NCBI GenBank assembly: GCA_964023275.1
Contig: OZ029914.1
Span: 33,829,924-33,893,923 of the forward strand
Direction: 5' to 3'
Origin: Norana najaformis
Lineage: Eukaryota > Annelida > Clitellata > Crassiclitellata > Hormogastridae
Length of the DNA stretch: 64,000 nucleotides
The notes beneath the pieces are model-generated. The model had not been told where the DNA came from and ran no database searches. It saw only the letters and a program-made list of their open reading frames with translations. A program made the translations under genes and the position numbers. Positions 480-47,604 of this stretch are shown here, piece after piece. The first letter of the stretch is position 1, and each line of letters starts with the position of its first letter.

Positions 480-3400
480 CCAGATGTTACACCCTACGAA
501 AGTAGAAACTCCCTCAACTTTGATATGCATTTTGCTGACTTGAATCAAAGATTACATTCGTATGAAAATAAGCCGTTGCCTAAGGGTCAAGAAAAAGAGG
601 CACTTGCTGAGGCGGGATTTTATTATGTCGGTAAGTAAGCCAAAGCTGGTAAAACATTGTTATTTAATATACAATAATCATGCATTTGCTATGTCCCTTT
701 ATCCTTAGTTATGTAACAGCAGCAATTTAACTCAGAATTCCAGGAGCAGTGGCTTTCACCAAGCAACTTGGGTGAAGTTTGTTGTTATTGTAATTCCAAA
801 TTTATATAGCAGCACTTAAGAGAAATTCATCAGAGGCACTTCCAAACTGACAACACAGAACCGCAATCAAATACTTGGTATTCAAGCGCTAAATGATAAA
901 AGTCTATAAAGAGACTCTTCTTTCAGTTTTCTAGTTTCTGTTCATTGTATTGCTTCATCATCCTCCCAAACTCTACTAAGACACCTCCTTCATACTCAGC
1001 CACTCCTTGTTCTGTTACGTCTTTCCTTTCCCGCGTATCGCACCAACCCTTGACTAATTCCAAACCTCTTAGACAAATGCAAGCCAACCAAAATTAAAAC
1101 AACTGTCTTAATTGTTTTGACTGTATGATCAGTAAAAGTGTACGTGATTATATGTTTGAGATGACTGTGACAAGTTACCAAGTTACTCAACAAGTTACTC
1201 AGCGCGTTACAAATTACGGTAGCACGTCAGCAAAAACATAGCAGTGATGAGCAGCTGTACTGATACCGCATGAACATTAGTCTTAACAGAATTGCAGCTG
1301 AGTTCCTTCGTGGTAACATCAGTATGTTTTATAATTAAAATTAGACTGACCCTGTTTTGATGGGTAATGTTTACTTGTAAGCAATAATTTCTATCAACTT
1401 ATGATGTATGGCAGTTGATTTGTTAATTCTTTTGACTGATCCAGGTCCTGGAGACAGTGTGAAATGTTTCCAGTGTGGTGGAGTCTTAAAGAAGTGGTCA
1501 GCAATGGATGAGCCGTGGATCGAGCATGCCAGGTGGTTTCCACACTGCATCTTTCTCTTGAGAGTGAAAGGTCACAAGTTCATCAATGACGTCGAACAAC
1601 GGTTTAATGGACCAGGTGTAATGGTAAGGATTTATGGATTTTCAAGGTTATGGGTGTGGGATAATCTGTTGATTAGCATTCTGGGCTGTTAAACCAGAGG
1701 TAAGCTTTCAAATCCCCACCAGTGAATTTGAAAGATATTTCAAGATTTCTCTTCTACTAGCTTCCTCCAATGAATTCAGATATAAACTGAGTACATAATC
1801 TGTATGCTGTTGGGAAGAAAATCAGATGGTGAGATGGAGGACTGATCACCCACCCTCACACAAACAGGCGAAGAAAATGAAATTGCTGATGCTTAATACT
1901 GTGCCGCTTTTTGAGTTTAGCTTAAGGGACTTCCTAAAGGTTATGGAACTTAATGAATATTAAAGTAATAAAGCTGAAATGGTAAAGGCAACACTCTTGT
2001 ATATGTGCTGTTATAAAAATTCCTCTGATGTGTGGTACTCAGTTTGAAGTATCTTTCAGCTAAAGTTCAAACATGACTTCAACGATCCATCAACAGTCCT
2101 TAATAAATAGCAACGTTGTTTGTTATGTGGCAGCGTGTTTAATAACCATTTATGTCCAACAATATTGTTGCTGCCTAATAACTGGACCATATTGTATGTG
2201 TATGCAGGCTTACAGTTAGGCTTTAAAGGCTAACTGTTAGTCAGATGACAAGTTCAAATTAACATTTTCATTTGTGAAAATGTGATTGAACGGCTTAAGT
2301 TACTGGCCAATACCAAAATTCACTGGTGGCTGAAGCTATTATTCCTGCAAGTTGTAGCACTGAAACTGAATTTCAGTCTGCCTGTGTGTTGTTTTATGTA
2401 TGTATGTATCTGTGTATGTGTGTGTATGTGTGTGAGTCTGTGTGGGCCTGAGTTTTTCTATAGCATCTGTTAAAAACCTCACAAAAGTGCTTCTCAGCAG
2501 GCTTACTGTTGCCATAAATTTGCCACAAAGTGCAAAATGAATGATATATAAAATTTTTGAAGTTTAATTTCTTGTATTTTGTAAGAACTAGTTTGGATGT
2601 TTTAACGTTATTGCTAACTGAAGGCATGCTTTGTTCTCCTGACATATTTGCTACATTGACACTGATTTGTTTAGAAATGCACAAAATATTAAGACATAGT
2701 TCTGTTTTGTTTTATTAGGAGACGGAACGAAATTCTGGTATGTGGATTTCTACTATTGCAGAATTTGTTTATGTAAGCAAAACATTGTGAAAAAATGATA
2801 AGTTGTTGCTGCAGTTAAATATCCAACTGGTTGAAATCGGATGTTTGCCTTATGTTATACTTACCCCCTTACCATCAGTTGTGTTGATAATTGCAAAGAA
2901 TTCAAAAATTTCATAGAATTGTAGGATTAGCTTGGTAATTTTATGTAATTGCTTTTCATGATGAGCAAAATTAGCCAGTGGTGCTCAATAGCCAAACAAA
3001 ATATACATTGTAACCTTGTGTGTACATTTCGTAATCGTAATCGTAATCTCGAGATTTCTACAGCGCTCAACGAAAGCTAAGTCGCGGGAACCAGCTTATT
3101 CACAGGCGCTCAGTCAAAACAAAATCGATAGGCAAAAGGGTCAACATTTGAACCTCCTCTGAGATTATGACAAGATAGGAACCTTCAGCAAGTCCGTTAC
3201 AATCAATTGCATAGTGGTATTTGCTTTGTGAATCAGCTAATAGTGCTATATAACTTCAAAAATAAATCAGTATTCACTTGAAAGAAAATGGGTGTCAGCT
3301 CAATAATCTAAGCTGGGCAAAACTGGGGCCTTTCTCTCAGCCTGACCAGCTAGCCAACTGACAGATCCCATTTTGGTTAATTAAATGTTTTATTTCTAGA

Positions 3401-6024
3401 GAATCCTAGTCTAGCGGAGTTCGGCAATGAGGACACGATACCAAAAATAAGAATGGAGGAGGCAGAACAAGAAGAGTCAACATCGCTTAAACAGGAATTT
3501 CTACCCAGCACCATTTCTGCGAGTAGTCCCTCGGGTAGGCCATTTTTTTAGAGGTCCTTAAAGAGTGCTTTACAGAAGCTCACTGCACACATACATACGT
3601 ACGTACATACATACAGTATTATTAAACTGCAAATATTGATAGTCATATTTAGTTGTGAGGTTCTTATAAGAAAATCACATTCGTTTCGTCATTGCCTGGA
3701 ACTCGGGGGCTTTGACCAGTTCTGCACATGGAGACAGGTATTGACTTAAGCACATGTCTGGCAGGCTGTTGTGCAGGTTATGCAACAATACTTGTTTACA
3801 TTTGTTACATTTGGTTAAATTTTTGGCCTGAATTTTCAAGATGGACAAAAATTGGGTTTTGATGTTTTGAATAATCAATAAGTAAACATTATGTAATTTT
3901 ATTGCCTTGTTTGACACATAGGTTTATCAATAAGACAGTATTAATTAATTTTATTGCCTGGTACATGCAGTTTGTAAGATGTAAATTTTGATTCAGGTGA
4001 AACGGTCTTCACTGTTAATTTGAAAATTTTGCAAACAGTTTGTAAGCATGAAATGCCTGAAAATAAGTAACAGTATTTTAATTAAATATCAGATTATTTT
4101 AGCAAATTTAAACAGTACTCCAGTTCTAATATTATTTTGTGTCATTTTTGCTTATATGCCCATGATTCCCATGTCTGGCAATAATTATGGTGACATCATG
4201 AAAAAACGTTGGTGTATATATGGAATTTGGACAAATACTTACTTACTTAGGAGGTTTAACATTTACTGGTACTAAATATGTGTAATGTATAGTTGGCCAA
4301 TGTAAATTTTAGCTTTTCTGTTGCACCGTTGTAAACTGCAAAGTCTTCTATGTTTTGAAATAAGTTTCAGGTGCATCATCAGGCGCCACGAATGTTCAGC
4401 TTCCTACGAAGGTAACGTATCCACCGGAAATGCCTTCATCATCATCAACAGTACTATCTTCATCATCATCGTCACCACCAACAGTACCAACTTCATCAAC
4501 AACTTCTGTTAAGCCTTCAAAGGCTGATGATGAAGGTATTGTCATTTGATTTTTATTAAATTTTTCTTTTCTTGGTTTGTAATATGTGTTGAAGAATTTT
4601 CTCTTGTACGTATCACACTTTAGAGGTTTAATTTCTTGTTTACCCACATTTCTAAATTATTCTTGTGTACTGTTTATTATCCTCGTTGATTCTGACTAGG
4701 TCTTAAGCAGTGATTTCCTGTATTTATGGCCTCTGATTACATTATGTTTAGTCATGATGTTTTCTGTATATGGTACTAGATTTGGGTAGTGAAACTTCTT
4801 CCCTTGGCATTCTTAATAGAGTTTAGCTGAATGTTTTAAAACTTGTTGTGGAGATAGCAGACAAATTCTATGCCTGGAATGCCAGAGTTAATTCATAGGT
4901 GCCTGGGAAACATTGAACCCTGAGATCAGATGGGTGGCTTGTGACAAGATGCTGAATCCTATGAAGTTCTAGAGTTCTGAAGATGGCTCAGGGTTTATAG
5001 AGAGTCATAGGGGAATGTAAACTCTGTAAACCCGTATCAGTATTGTCATATAAAACAAAAATCTTAGAGGGTAATCAATAGTCATGGAGACCTCGCAAAA
5101 AAGACTCAGCATTTATTGGATGTCATAGGGGAATCTCACAGTAGCAGTTGAGCTAGGGTATTTTAGTCCTTGGGCTTTAATGGGTTGAATAGTTTCAGTG
5201 TTTGAATATTGACCCAGATAAGTCTTCAGAGGTATTCTTCATTTCCTTGAAACATTTGGCTTTTCCTCCTCCTCTTCCTCCCCCTACCAGGTGCTTGTAT
5301 TCAGAGCGGTTTGTGTGATGGCCTAGTGGTTAGCGTACTGGACTGTCAGCCGAGAGACTGGGGTTTAAATTGACTGGGGCAAAAATGCACCTCCTAGCAA
5401 ACTCTGCTGTAAGATGAATACACACTGACCATACATTGTCAGTGGAAGGATCAGGAGATGAGGGAGAGGATTGGCCGGCCCTGCTCTCGTGTGTTGAAGC
5501 TAAGAAAAAAGAGTAGTAGTTCTACCCATGGCTGCCTCTTATGGTTAGCTTAAGGGACTGCACTTATTCTTCTTTGTTTCAGAGATAGCAGTCGTGGCAC
5601 AGGAAACTGCACTTATTCTTCTTTGTTTCAGAGATAGCAGTCGTGGCACAGGAAACTGCACTTATTCTTCTTTGTTTCAGAGATAGCAGTCGTGGCACAG
5701 GAAACTGCACTTATTCTTCTTTGTTTCAGAGATAGCAGTCGTGGCACAGGAAACTGCACTTATTCTTCTTTGTTTCAGAGATAGCAGTCGTGGCACAGGA
5801 AACTGCACTTATTCTTCTTTGTTTCAGAGATAGCAGTCGTGGCACAGGAAAACCAACGACTGAAGGATGCTGTACTGTGCAAAATCTGTATGGACGAAAC
5901 GGCAAACACTGTGTTTCTGCCTTGTGGACATCTTCTCTGCTGTGAAAACTGTGCACCAGCGATTCAAGATTGCCCTGTTTGCCGAGGAATCATCAAAGGA
6001 ACCCTTAAGGTGTACATATCATAG
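480..6024 (+). CDS. Inhibitor of apoptosis protein, BIR + C-terminal RING (5' partial)
   Basis: The proposed join is 480-630, 1445-1623, 2719-2737, 3400-3534, 4371-4535 and 5828-6024 (stop TAG). All phases agree and give 281 codons. Exons 1-2 encode a BIR domain: LAEAGFYYVGPGD, then CFQCGG, then a D-E-P-W-x-x-H-A-R-W-F-P-x-C stretch, which supplies the Cys-Cys-His-Cys zinc ligands. The 19-nt third exon and exons 4-5 encode an acidic then Ser/Thr/Pro-rich linker. The last exon encodes an XIAP/cIAP-type RING (CKIC, CGHLLCC, CPVCRG) ending in IKGTLKVYIS at the extreme C terminus, as in RING IAPs. In this family BIR domains bind caspases or adaptors and the RING is an E3 ubiquitin ligase. No UBA or CARD is seen between them. 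Upstream exons, possibly with more BIRs, are missing. The position usually held by Trp in the BIR N-P-type turn is Lys (YENKPL). Which IAP paralogue this is cannot be told. Confidence 0.93.
772..893 (-). repeat. Dispersed SINE-like repeat (family with ctatataaat tail)
   Basis: Reading attgtaattccaaatttata, it continues with strong similarity to 25001-25117 (conserved aaatttatatagc, ctcatcagag-like and cagaaccgcaatcaaat-like blocks). In reverse complement the tail resembles plus-strand copies at 28795-28872 and 56748-56812. Confidence 0.6.
1805..1935 (+). mobile_element. SINE body fragment, same family as 5315-5561
   Basis: This segment carries the gggaagaaaatcag...actgatcacccacc body and ends in gtttagcttaagggac, matching the 3' halves at 5390-5561 and 32755-32935. 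The tRNA-like head is absent. It lies in IAP intron 2. Confidence 0.5.
2719..2737 (+). other. 19-nt microexon of the IAP gene
   Basis: The segment is flanked by ttttattag and gtatgtgg, both good splice signals. Exon 2 ends in phase 0 if it uses the atg|gtaagg donor at 1623. Exon 4 needs one preceding base (phase 1), and exactly 19 nt satisfies this, encoding ETERNS plus the first base of the next Glu codon. Skipping it would require a weaker donor (accag|gtgtaa at 1615), which also happens to keep frame, so the microexon may be alternative. Confidence 0.6.
3029..3140 (-). mobile_element. 3' end of a non-LTR (LINE-like) element with ATTACG-type tail
   Basis: The segment begins with cgtaatcgtaatcgtaatct and continues with blocks (cagcgctcaacgaaagctaa, ccagcttattcacaggcgct, aaaatcgataggc). 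The reverse complement of these blocks recurs at 48440-48560 and, more diverged, at 47090-47200. At 48 kb the same tail follows a LINE ORF2 C-terminal remnant. Confidence 0.6.
5315..5561 (+). mobile_element. tRNA-derived SINE copy in the last IAP intron
   Basis: The head looks like a tRNA: an A-box-like ggcctagtggttagcgtac near 5321-5339, then a B-box-like ggggtttaaat near 5361. The body (acctcctagcaaactc, then a segment like cagtggaaggatcagg) and the end gcttaagggactgc match copies at about 1805-1935 and 32755-32935. The 3' end abuts the 49-bp array. Confidence 0.65.
5557..5850 (+). repeat. Six perfect 49-bp tandem copies containing the RING-exon splice acceptor
   Basis: Six identical 49-bp units run from 5557 to 5850. 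Each contains a pyrimidine-rich stretch, tttcag, and then the first 23 bases of the IAP RING exon. Candidate exon starts therefore fall at 5583, 5632, 5681, 5730, 5779 and 5828. Because 49 is not a multiple of 3, only the last acceptor joins the upstream exon in frame to the RING. Use of acceptor 3 keeps frame arithmetically but meets a TAG two units downstream. The array starts inside the last bases of a SINE-like element (taagggactgc). Perfect identity implies very recent expansion, or an assembly problem. Confidence 0.97.
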
Positions 6025-6489: not shown

Positions 6490-6495
6490 AATAAA
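6490..6495 (+). other. Candidate poly(A) signal for the IAP gene
   Basis: AATAAA lies 466 bases after the stop codon. A second AATAAA at 6836-6841 could give a longer 3' end. No transcript evidence is available. Confidence 0.45.
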
Positions 6496-7267
6496 AGGAG
6501 GTGATGGTAGCAGTTAGAAGATGGTGCAGAGTAAGAGATGTAAGAAACTTCAACTTGTTTTGTAGCGTGTTTTAGAATTTGGACCTTTAGGCACAGCTAC
6601 ATTTTTATGTTAGATCTAGGTTAGACAAGAATAAGTATTCGATTTGGTTAATAGGATTCGCTGTTTCGTGTTACATAGTTGACAGTATTAGAAAGAGCTT
6701 TTGCTTAGAGCATTATTGTATTCTACACTTGCTGTTTATATTTGAGGGATAGCTTGCACTGACAAAACTTAATTCAGACTTGTAAATATCGTCTTTTTAG
6801 CACATATTCAGTTGTACAAATAATCATTTTATCACAATAAACAATCGATATTCGTACATGTAGATGCACAAAATTTGTAAACAAAATCTGCCCTTAAAAT
6901 TTCCAAGTTTCGTCTATAGGTTAAATTTCTTTGGGTTGGCAACTCTAACTGCGTATTATACACACATATTAAAAACGTTCTGTATGTGCGTGCGTGTGCT
7001 TGCACGTGCGTGTGTGTGTATTTCTAATATATTCTATATGTAATGTCAAAAGAGAAAACGGAGCATGAATTGGTAGGATGCCGTGTTATGGATGTTTAGC
7101 TATGGTGGGTGTGGCTGTGGAAACTGTAGCTGACTTCAGTAATATGCTGGTATCTGACTGATACCAACCACTTGATGGTGCAAATCGTGTAGTATTCTGG
7201 GCTAAATAGGTTTATTTATTGTGAATATTGACATTCCGTGCAGTTTGGCAGCCAAAGTTAAGCATAA

Positions 7268-8099: not shown

Positions 8100-8529
8100 G
8101 TATGAAGTGTGCCGCCGTCATTGGTCACGTGACGTTGTCTTCATCCGGACTAGGTTATAATGGGAGTCGGCCAGACGTTGTAATGTCGCCAATTTCCCGC
8201 TTTTCCACGACGATCCCAATCATGGATAAGTGATCGAAGCACACAATCAGACGATCTTGGACACGTCCGGCCGGTCTCCGGTCGTGTAGAGTGGTTTCAT
8301 TAGACGACGAGAGCTGTCTTCTGCTGGCCGTTTGTTAGAATTGTCTACTTGTTAGTTCGTGCGTTCGTTCGTTCGCTAGTTCAAGGAGCAGGATTTGGCT
8401 TCGTTTGTTCGTTCGACGGGTTCGTAAATCTCCGACCATAACTGCCTGTTACCGTCCGTCGGGGCTGTAAACCCGGCTGCTGGCCGGCCGAGGAGAATTC
8501 TTCACGGATCGTTGCGTTTGAATGTCGAG
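8100..8529 (+). promoter_or_regulatory. CMIP: CpG-rich promoter/5' UTR region of CMIP
   Basis: Base composition shifts from AT-rich to clearly G+C- and CG-rich between about 8060 and 8900, spanning the presumed first exon. A GTTC-type short repeat (gttcgtgcgttcgttcgttc, 8354-8373) lies in the likely 5' UTR. No TATA box stands out. The exact transcription start cannot be fixed. Confidence 0.55.

Positions 8530-28397
<19,868 letters not shown>

Positions 28398-47547: not shown

Positions 47548-47550
<3 letters not shown>
47330..47550 (+). mobile_element. LINE ORF2 C-terminal remnant
   Basis: The plus strand encodes SFMSKLKAHLFQLVY, the conserved terminal segment of LINE ORF2 proteins, after a frame-broken stretch. 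The degraded 3' region runs into a (CT)n repeat. Confidence 0.55.

Positions 47551-47604
<54 letters not shown>

Follow-up and report, generated by a model that had tools for sequence, protein, structure and literature searches.

Introduction

Mobile-element sequence can provide the polypyrimidine tract of a splice acceptor, as in exonized SINEs such as antisense Alu elements. An acceptor can also be doubled in place: the human CBS 844ins68 allele carries a 68-bp duplicated intron–exon junction, the distal copy of which is reported to be strongly favoured, giving a normal mRNA (PMC2630376). Tandem duplication at an intron–exon border has further been described as a route to intron gain in a potato RdRp gene, with 24-bp exonic repeats of fission yeast cited as another case of intron gain (PMC4974935), and internal tandem repeats have been reported in human paralogues (PMC2812944). 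Among the matches listed from the openly licensed PMC literature, none names, in the parts available, a series of identical acceptors within an IAP gene, and the available part of PMC2891723, on intron gain, describes no closer case. The spliceosome is reported to favour strongly the first AG past the branch point (PMC7317903, PMC1431707), and AGs closer than 12-15 nt to the branch point may be bypassed (PMC1431707).

Here we describe a locus in the window, the whole 64,000-nucleotide stretch of DNA analysed, at which six acceptors identical over 49 bases stand in one native intron. The locus amounts to a natural experiment on the choice among equal 3′ splice sites, for which the published splicing rules may predict opposite ends of the array.

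Results

The last coding exon of a three-BIR IAP gene

The gene at this locus encodes an IAP with three BIR domains and a RING, the latter in the last coding exon. Two BIR stretches lie directly upstream of the window and the third spans two window exons. The RING exon matches Pfam zf-C3HC4_3 (E 2.2e-15) and its best solved relative is the RING of BIRC2/cIAP1 (6hpr, E 1.2e-21), which identifies a C-terminal RING of the IAP type. We set the exon borders by eye from AG, GT and frame. No stop is met in the exons read, and the RING exon is open and conserved; searches of the genome_contigs and viral_contigs collections returned no relatives of it. The parts of the gene are as follows.

L062 2687-3631: exon with two BIR stretches, directly upstream of the window
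480..630, + strand: coding exon with the start of BIR3, phase 0 in and phase 1 out (borders by eye; the BIR Pfam match is to the translation joined to the next exon)
1445..1623, + strand: coding exon with the zinc-binding half of BIR3 (BIR match 1447-1557; the 3′ end may instead be 1615)
2719: candidate for a possible 19-base exon
3400..3534, + strand: linker coding exon, phase 1 on both sides (open frame with AG/GT; borders by eye)
4371..4535, + strand: Ser-rich linker coding exon, donor GT at 4536
5828..6024, + strand: last coding exon (RING), read from acceptor 6, stop TAG 6022-6024
6490..6495, + strand: first AATAAA past the stop, a second lying at 6836

The exon of the same gene upstream of the window also holds a coding minisatellite between BIR1 and BIR2 (L062 2946-3215), with a 93-bp unit, a multiple of three, present in 2.9 copies at 87%. 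Further upstream of the gene, an open frame at L062 862-1242 resembles, by eye only, a fragment of a non-LTR reverse transcriptase. On the other side, an open frame at 8428-9153 of the window matches the C-Maf-inducing protein PH domain (PF23066, E 7.8e-19) and is perhaps part of the next gene downstream.

A perfect six-copy array across the acceptor

The array is present in the assembly. Tandem Repeats Finder (TRF) reports period 49, 6.0 copies, 100% matches and 0 indels at 5557-5851, and a script found the 49-bp copies identical (6/6), the array consisting of six units plus one base. Self-identity across 246 overlapping bases is far above chance, and among the 22 TRF rows for the window this is the sole one combining at least three copies, a period above 3 and 100% matches. 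Each unit comprises 26 intronic bases ending in TTTCAG followed by 23 exonic bases, and the tandem copy therefore crosses the intron–exon junction and repeats the AG, as in a duplicated-acceptor allele of the 844ins68 type. The script places the first exon bases of acceptors 1-6 at 5583, 5632, 5681, 5730, 5779 and 5828, and these acceptors agree in every base from -26 to +23.

These results bear out the initial annotation on three counts: the Pfam and structural matches agree with its assignment of an IAP RING exon, TRF and the script recover its unit of a pyrimidine-rich stretch, the AG and 23 exon bases in six equal acceptors, and the copies show the lack of divergence that it had claimed.

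A DNA search of the source genome with the array (608,420,607 bases in 17 contigs) returned a single place, the window locus, and no second copy of the unit elsewhere; very common words are skipped in this search, so absence of a match is not proof of rarity. RNA folding of 5500-5870 gave nothing special (z -0.47). Elsewhere in the window, perfect dinucleotide repeats of AG (49 units) and CT (27 units) occupy 17375-17472 and 47550-47603, respectively.

A SINE tail within the repeat unit

Immediately upstream, the array is joined to a dispersed element, and the following features are needed to describe the junction.

5295..5306, + strand: probable target-site duplication, left copy, TTGTATTCAGAG, which includes an acceptor-like TTCAG|AG with first base 5305 (from local alignment with the right flank)
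5307..5573, + strand: tRNA-type SINE in sense orientation, its pyrimidine-rich 3′ tail entering the first array unit
5557..5851, + strand: 49-bp array, six identical units plus one base, each unit with 17 nt of SINE tail, an 11-nt target-site copy holding the AG, and 21 more exon nt
5574..5584, + strand: probable target-site duplication, right copy, TTGTTTCAGAG, the first of six

A genome search with 5290-5583, in which 40 of 1193 candidates were scored, gave at least 44 matches including the query itself; of these, four short ones are second pieces of copies already counted, or adjacent to them. On the same scoring (40 of 1193 candidates), 20 of the 43 non-self matches reach window position 5573 or further, that is, well into the first unit, so dispersed relatives of the element cover the pyrimidine tract. 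Four aligned copies have the 3′ end GCTTAAGGGACTG in common, and in each a pyrimidine-rich tail comes after it. We compared the window copy with 20 others, two of which (L072, L075) were not anchored, leaving 18; judged by eye on the right flanks, the pyrimidine-rich tail follows the 3′ box in 18/18 of these. On this alignment, the unit opens with 17 bases, ACTGCACTTATTCTTCT, assignable to the SINE tail, and most of the intronic part of the unit is accordingly read as the pyrimidine-rich 3′ tail of an old SINE, a component absent from the initial annotation.

A probable target-site duplication flanks the SINE and appears to hold the acceptor AG. The pair TTGTATTCAGAG/TTGTTTCAGAG aligns with 11 matches and one gap, a score equalled by 80 of 19778 random 21-mers of the window; in a weaker control based on the longest shared word, of 7, as many as 531 of 19803 random 21-mers did as well. 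A wider search for duplications scored the window at 19 and the 18 other copies at 10-30, three of the 18 (L064, L071, L080) being higher; the higher score of L080 reflects a simple repeat, whereas the duplication of L071 is clear by eye, as is that of L075. The left copy is now a poor acceptor (2.5 bits), and a further AG lies 14 nt upstream of it. From the duplication it would follow that the SINE landed on the acceptor and that the surviving AG is that of the right copy. The assignment of the SINE tail as pyrimidine tract stands independently of the target-site duplication.

No near-perfect array of at least 40 bp with three or more copies was found by TRF in the 20 other SINE copies. Looser repeats do occur: a 95-bp unit in 1.8 copies at 78% over the 3′ part of L066 (positions 409-585 in a 600-base slice beginning at 1301), a 25-bp unit in 2.4 copies at 81% at the tail end of L070, and short tail repeats in L079 and L082. 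Tails of this SINE family therefore duplicate at times.

The array appears much younger than the SINE

By a crude estimate, the window SINE departs at 23.6% of 259 sites from a consensus built on the 18 other copies. The other copies differ from the consensus at 14.8-21.6% of sites; values for L066, L077 and L081, which are anchored inside an element and compared over only 51-84 sites, mean little. The five extra units of the array differ from the first at 0/245 sites (95% upper bound 1.2%, rule of three). Since 0/245 stands against 23.6%, the array would be much younger than the SINE at equal rates, by our inference at least about ten times younger in the absence of gene conversion between units, a process that could mask its age. 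The SINE would thus have inserted first, with amplification of its tail, the AG and the exon start coming later.

Acceptor strength and candidate branch points

We scored splice acceptors with a matrix built from 21 sites, comprising 16 paralogues, L021 and four other introns of the IAP gene, a set that is small and includes close paralogues. The six array acceptors tie at 12.3 bits each. The AG two bases past each array acceptor reaches 8.9 bits, and the best AG outside the array, among 105 AGs scanned in 4561-5850, 3.1 bits. The training sites of the matrix itself range from 5.7 to 23.3 bits, 12 of the 21 lying above the array's value. Given so small a matrix, with close paralogues in it and its own members among the sites scored (9/21 of them below 12.3 bits), the array sites are to be regarded on their scores as ordinary acceptors, none of them exceptional.

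A scan of 5401-5860 for yUnAy matches gave one match per unit, copy 1 being additionally served by A5541:

5541, + strand: candidate branch-point A (CTTAT) directly upstream of the array
5566, + strand: A of a CTTAT in unit 1, a branch-point candidate lying 16 nt ahead of the G in the unit's AG and recurring every 49 nt to 5811

With A5541 as branch point, the first-AG rule would lead to copy 1 and a RING-less protein, whereas six complete sites are predicted to compete if each unit's own A serves.

Recursive splicing, or later removal of the extra units, was considered and rejected: the three GTs of the unit match 2, 2 and 3 of 9 donor consensus bases, compared with 6 or 7 in six donors of the gene, two of which are alternatives or doubtful. 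Since the GTs of the unit match the donor consensus so poorly, later splicing-out of extra units is unlikely.

Predicted products of the six acceptors

A frame script followed each acceptor into the last exon. Acceptors 1-4 (shifts of 5, 4, 3 and 2 units) each meet an in-array TAG after 34 codons, the junction codon counted, at 5684, 5733, 5782 and 5831, respectively, and the tail past the junction codon is the same 33 codons whichever of the four is read. Acceptor 5, shifted by one unit, gives 55 codons including the junction codon and then TGA at 5943. Acceptor 6 (5828) is the sole one to yield the RING, ending at the TAG at 6022. The products predicted from these frames for acceptors 1-5, of either kind, would retain the BIRs and lack the RING, to the extent that the acceptors are used.

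The script agrees with the initial annotation that the last acceptor alone keeps the RING frame. That reading had also held that shifts of one or two units change frame and that shifts of three or more meet a TAG; the first and last of these stand, but a shift of two units does more than change frame, as it meets the TAG at 5831. It had further suggested that transcripts from upstream acceptors might undergo nonsense-mediated decay. This is unlikely, given that the stops lie in what appears to be the terminal exon (stop at 6022, AATAAA at 6490 and 6836). Under the exon-junction model of nonsense-mediated decay, stops without a downstream exon junction should escape decay. As the premature stops have no known junction downstream, junction-dependent decay is not expected, and on this gene model RING-less protein rather than decay should result, barring a 3′ UTR intron or a long-UTR mechanism.

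A single acceptor is usual in paralogous RING loci

Searched as protein against the genome, the RING exon has 35 matches; 14 other RING matches lie at E below 1e-15. Dense BIR and RING matches cluster at 58.88-59.31 Mb of G000:C1, a local IAP expansion in which some BIR matches hold stops (introns ignored). Our paralogue sample comprised 19 RING loci (L003-L021), the window's own being excluded. The script found a phase-matched YAG at most 45 bases upstream in 16/19, 13 of these 16 acceptors having at least 9 pyrimidines in the preceding 14 bases; L021 is a 17th by eye, and L017 and L020 have no phase-matched acceptor within 45 bases upstream. TRF found no array across any of the acceptors identified in these loci, L016 and L019 carrying short arrays 100 to 220 bases upstream. 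A single acceptor being usual in the paralogues, the six of the window are derived.

A second example may be L021 (G000:C1:58881795-58884929), where a diverged 22-bp array (9.9 copies, 76%) closes the intron before an IAP-like RING exon. Several of its units end in TTTCAACG or TTTCAACA, and the last ends in TTTCAG|ACG. On the reverse complement, no other AG occurs from 1226 to the acceptor AG at 1443 (array region 1226-1445). Over the 245 bases tested there are 3 AGs against 6.8 expected from shuffles, which is not significant, 5.6% of shuffles being as low. L021 could be an old acceptor array that has lost its upstream AGs, or a pyrimidine array that never had them.

We gauged the background of such repeats in 155,842 bases, made up of the window and L003-L031, a sample biased to RING matches and including the window array. 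Arrays with periods of at least 10 cover 3.3% of these bases, and those with periods of at least 20 and three copies or more cover 1.65%. Two arrays of period at least 20 and at least three copies are at least 95% identical, that of the window and a 39-bp array in L026 (253-607; 9.1 copies, 95% identical). At a density of 1.65%, a genome this large is therefore expected to have minisatellites at some of its acceptors by chance. What sets the window array apart is the perfection of its copies, its SINE-built tract and the gene in which it lies, none of which is in itself evidence of a function.

Discussion

We propose the following order of events. In an IAP gene with three BIRs and a RING, a SINE would have inserted at the last intron's 3′ splice site or a few bases from it. 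The CTT-rich 3′ tail of the SINE would have taken over as the polypyrimidine tract, probably with the branch point, while the AG would have survived in the right-hand target-site copy. The tandem duplication of a 49-bp segment, running from the SINE tail through the AG to exon base 23, would have followed much later, with one base of homology at the breakpoints, and slippage or unequal exchange may then have expanded the segment to six copies, giving six equal acceptors. The anatomy of the array is confirmed, and its origin is better explained than in the initial annotation. Such a history suggests how an acceptor, once rebuilt by the insertion of a SINE, could become prone to tandem amplification later on.

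The account we favour, with somewhat better than even confidence, is that of a young minisatellite at a SINE-built acceptor with most likely mixed acceptor use, its splicing part being predicted from sequence. Mixed use itself, which we hold to be about evenly balanced, would give RING mRNA from the last site and, from the upstream sites, BIR-only protein with one of two short tails. The reported preference for the first AG and the behaviour of CBS 844ins68 conflict, and mixed use is therefore the best single guess. Against it, a branch point at 5541 would, under the first-AG preference, direct splicing to copy 1 at the expense of most RING product, and the candidate branch-point A within the unit lies only 16 nt from its AG. 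This account need assume no function of the array, and nothing examined carries a sign of selection on it.

It is unlikely that the array is silent in splicing, the last acceptor alone being used and the five upstream copies acting as intron. The CBS 844ins68 allele, with its strongly favoured distal copy and normal mRNA as reported (PMC2630376), offers a precedent, and the open, recognisable RING suggests that a RING product was needed at least until recently; yet no base distinguishes the six sites between -26 and +23, copy 1 is served by an additional branch-point candidate, and the first-AG preference as described (PMC1431707, PMC7317903) disfavours the last site. The same preference, together with the service of copy 1 by A5541, would suit a gene that is turning RING-less. 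Acceptor 1 would then dominate and the array would act as a hypomorphic allele, tolerated thanks to the presence of other RING IAPs, consistent with the 14 other strong RING matches in the genome. We consider this a little less probable still, as the RING exon is open and conserved and the exons are read without a stop. It is improbable, too, that the rebuilding of the acceptor by the SINE tail has led to a copy-number-variable bank of acceptors, the size of which sets the share of protein without the E3 ligase domain.

Assembly errors usually collapse tandem repeats rather than expand them, which argues against an assembly artefact, that is, fewer units in the actual genome. The perfection of the copies, as they stand in the assembly, would fit such an artefact; the genome is, however, in 17 contigs and is therefore probably long-read based, and we regard this explanation as very improbable. 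Least probable of all is a regulatory rheostat, retained because the number of units governs how much IAP is made with and without the RING, for although the identical tail from sites 1-4 would make the product independent of copy number and alternative splicing is reported to vary the domains of IAP genes in oyster (PMC8917759), the array bears no sign of age or conservation, and with 1.65% of the 155,842 sampled bases in comparable arrays some would fall at acceptors by chance.

Comparison with known systems

The internal tandem repeats of human paralogues resemble the array in being young and in changing gene structure and splicing, and differ in that exonic repeats and new introns are described there (PMC2812944). 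The intron gained by tandem duplication in the potato RdRp gene likewise involves a duplication at an intron–exon border with branch site, tract and acceptor (PMC4974935). The 49-bp unit, in contrast, contains no donor-like GT, the best matching 3/9, and no new intron is therefore expected at the array. Exonized antisense Alu elements create a new exon, whereas here a sense-strand CTT-rich tail appears to have rebuilt the acceptor of an existing, conserved one. In CBS 844ins68, a tandem duplication over an intron–exon junction is likewise reported to double the acceptor and the first exon bases (PMC2630376). That allele is a known polymorphism with two 68-bp copies, and its splicing has been tested, whereas that of the array is predicted here from sequence; in place of two copies, the window holds six perfect 49-bp copies at a last coding exon, with a tract that we trace to a SINE.
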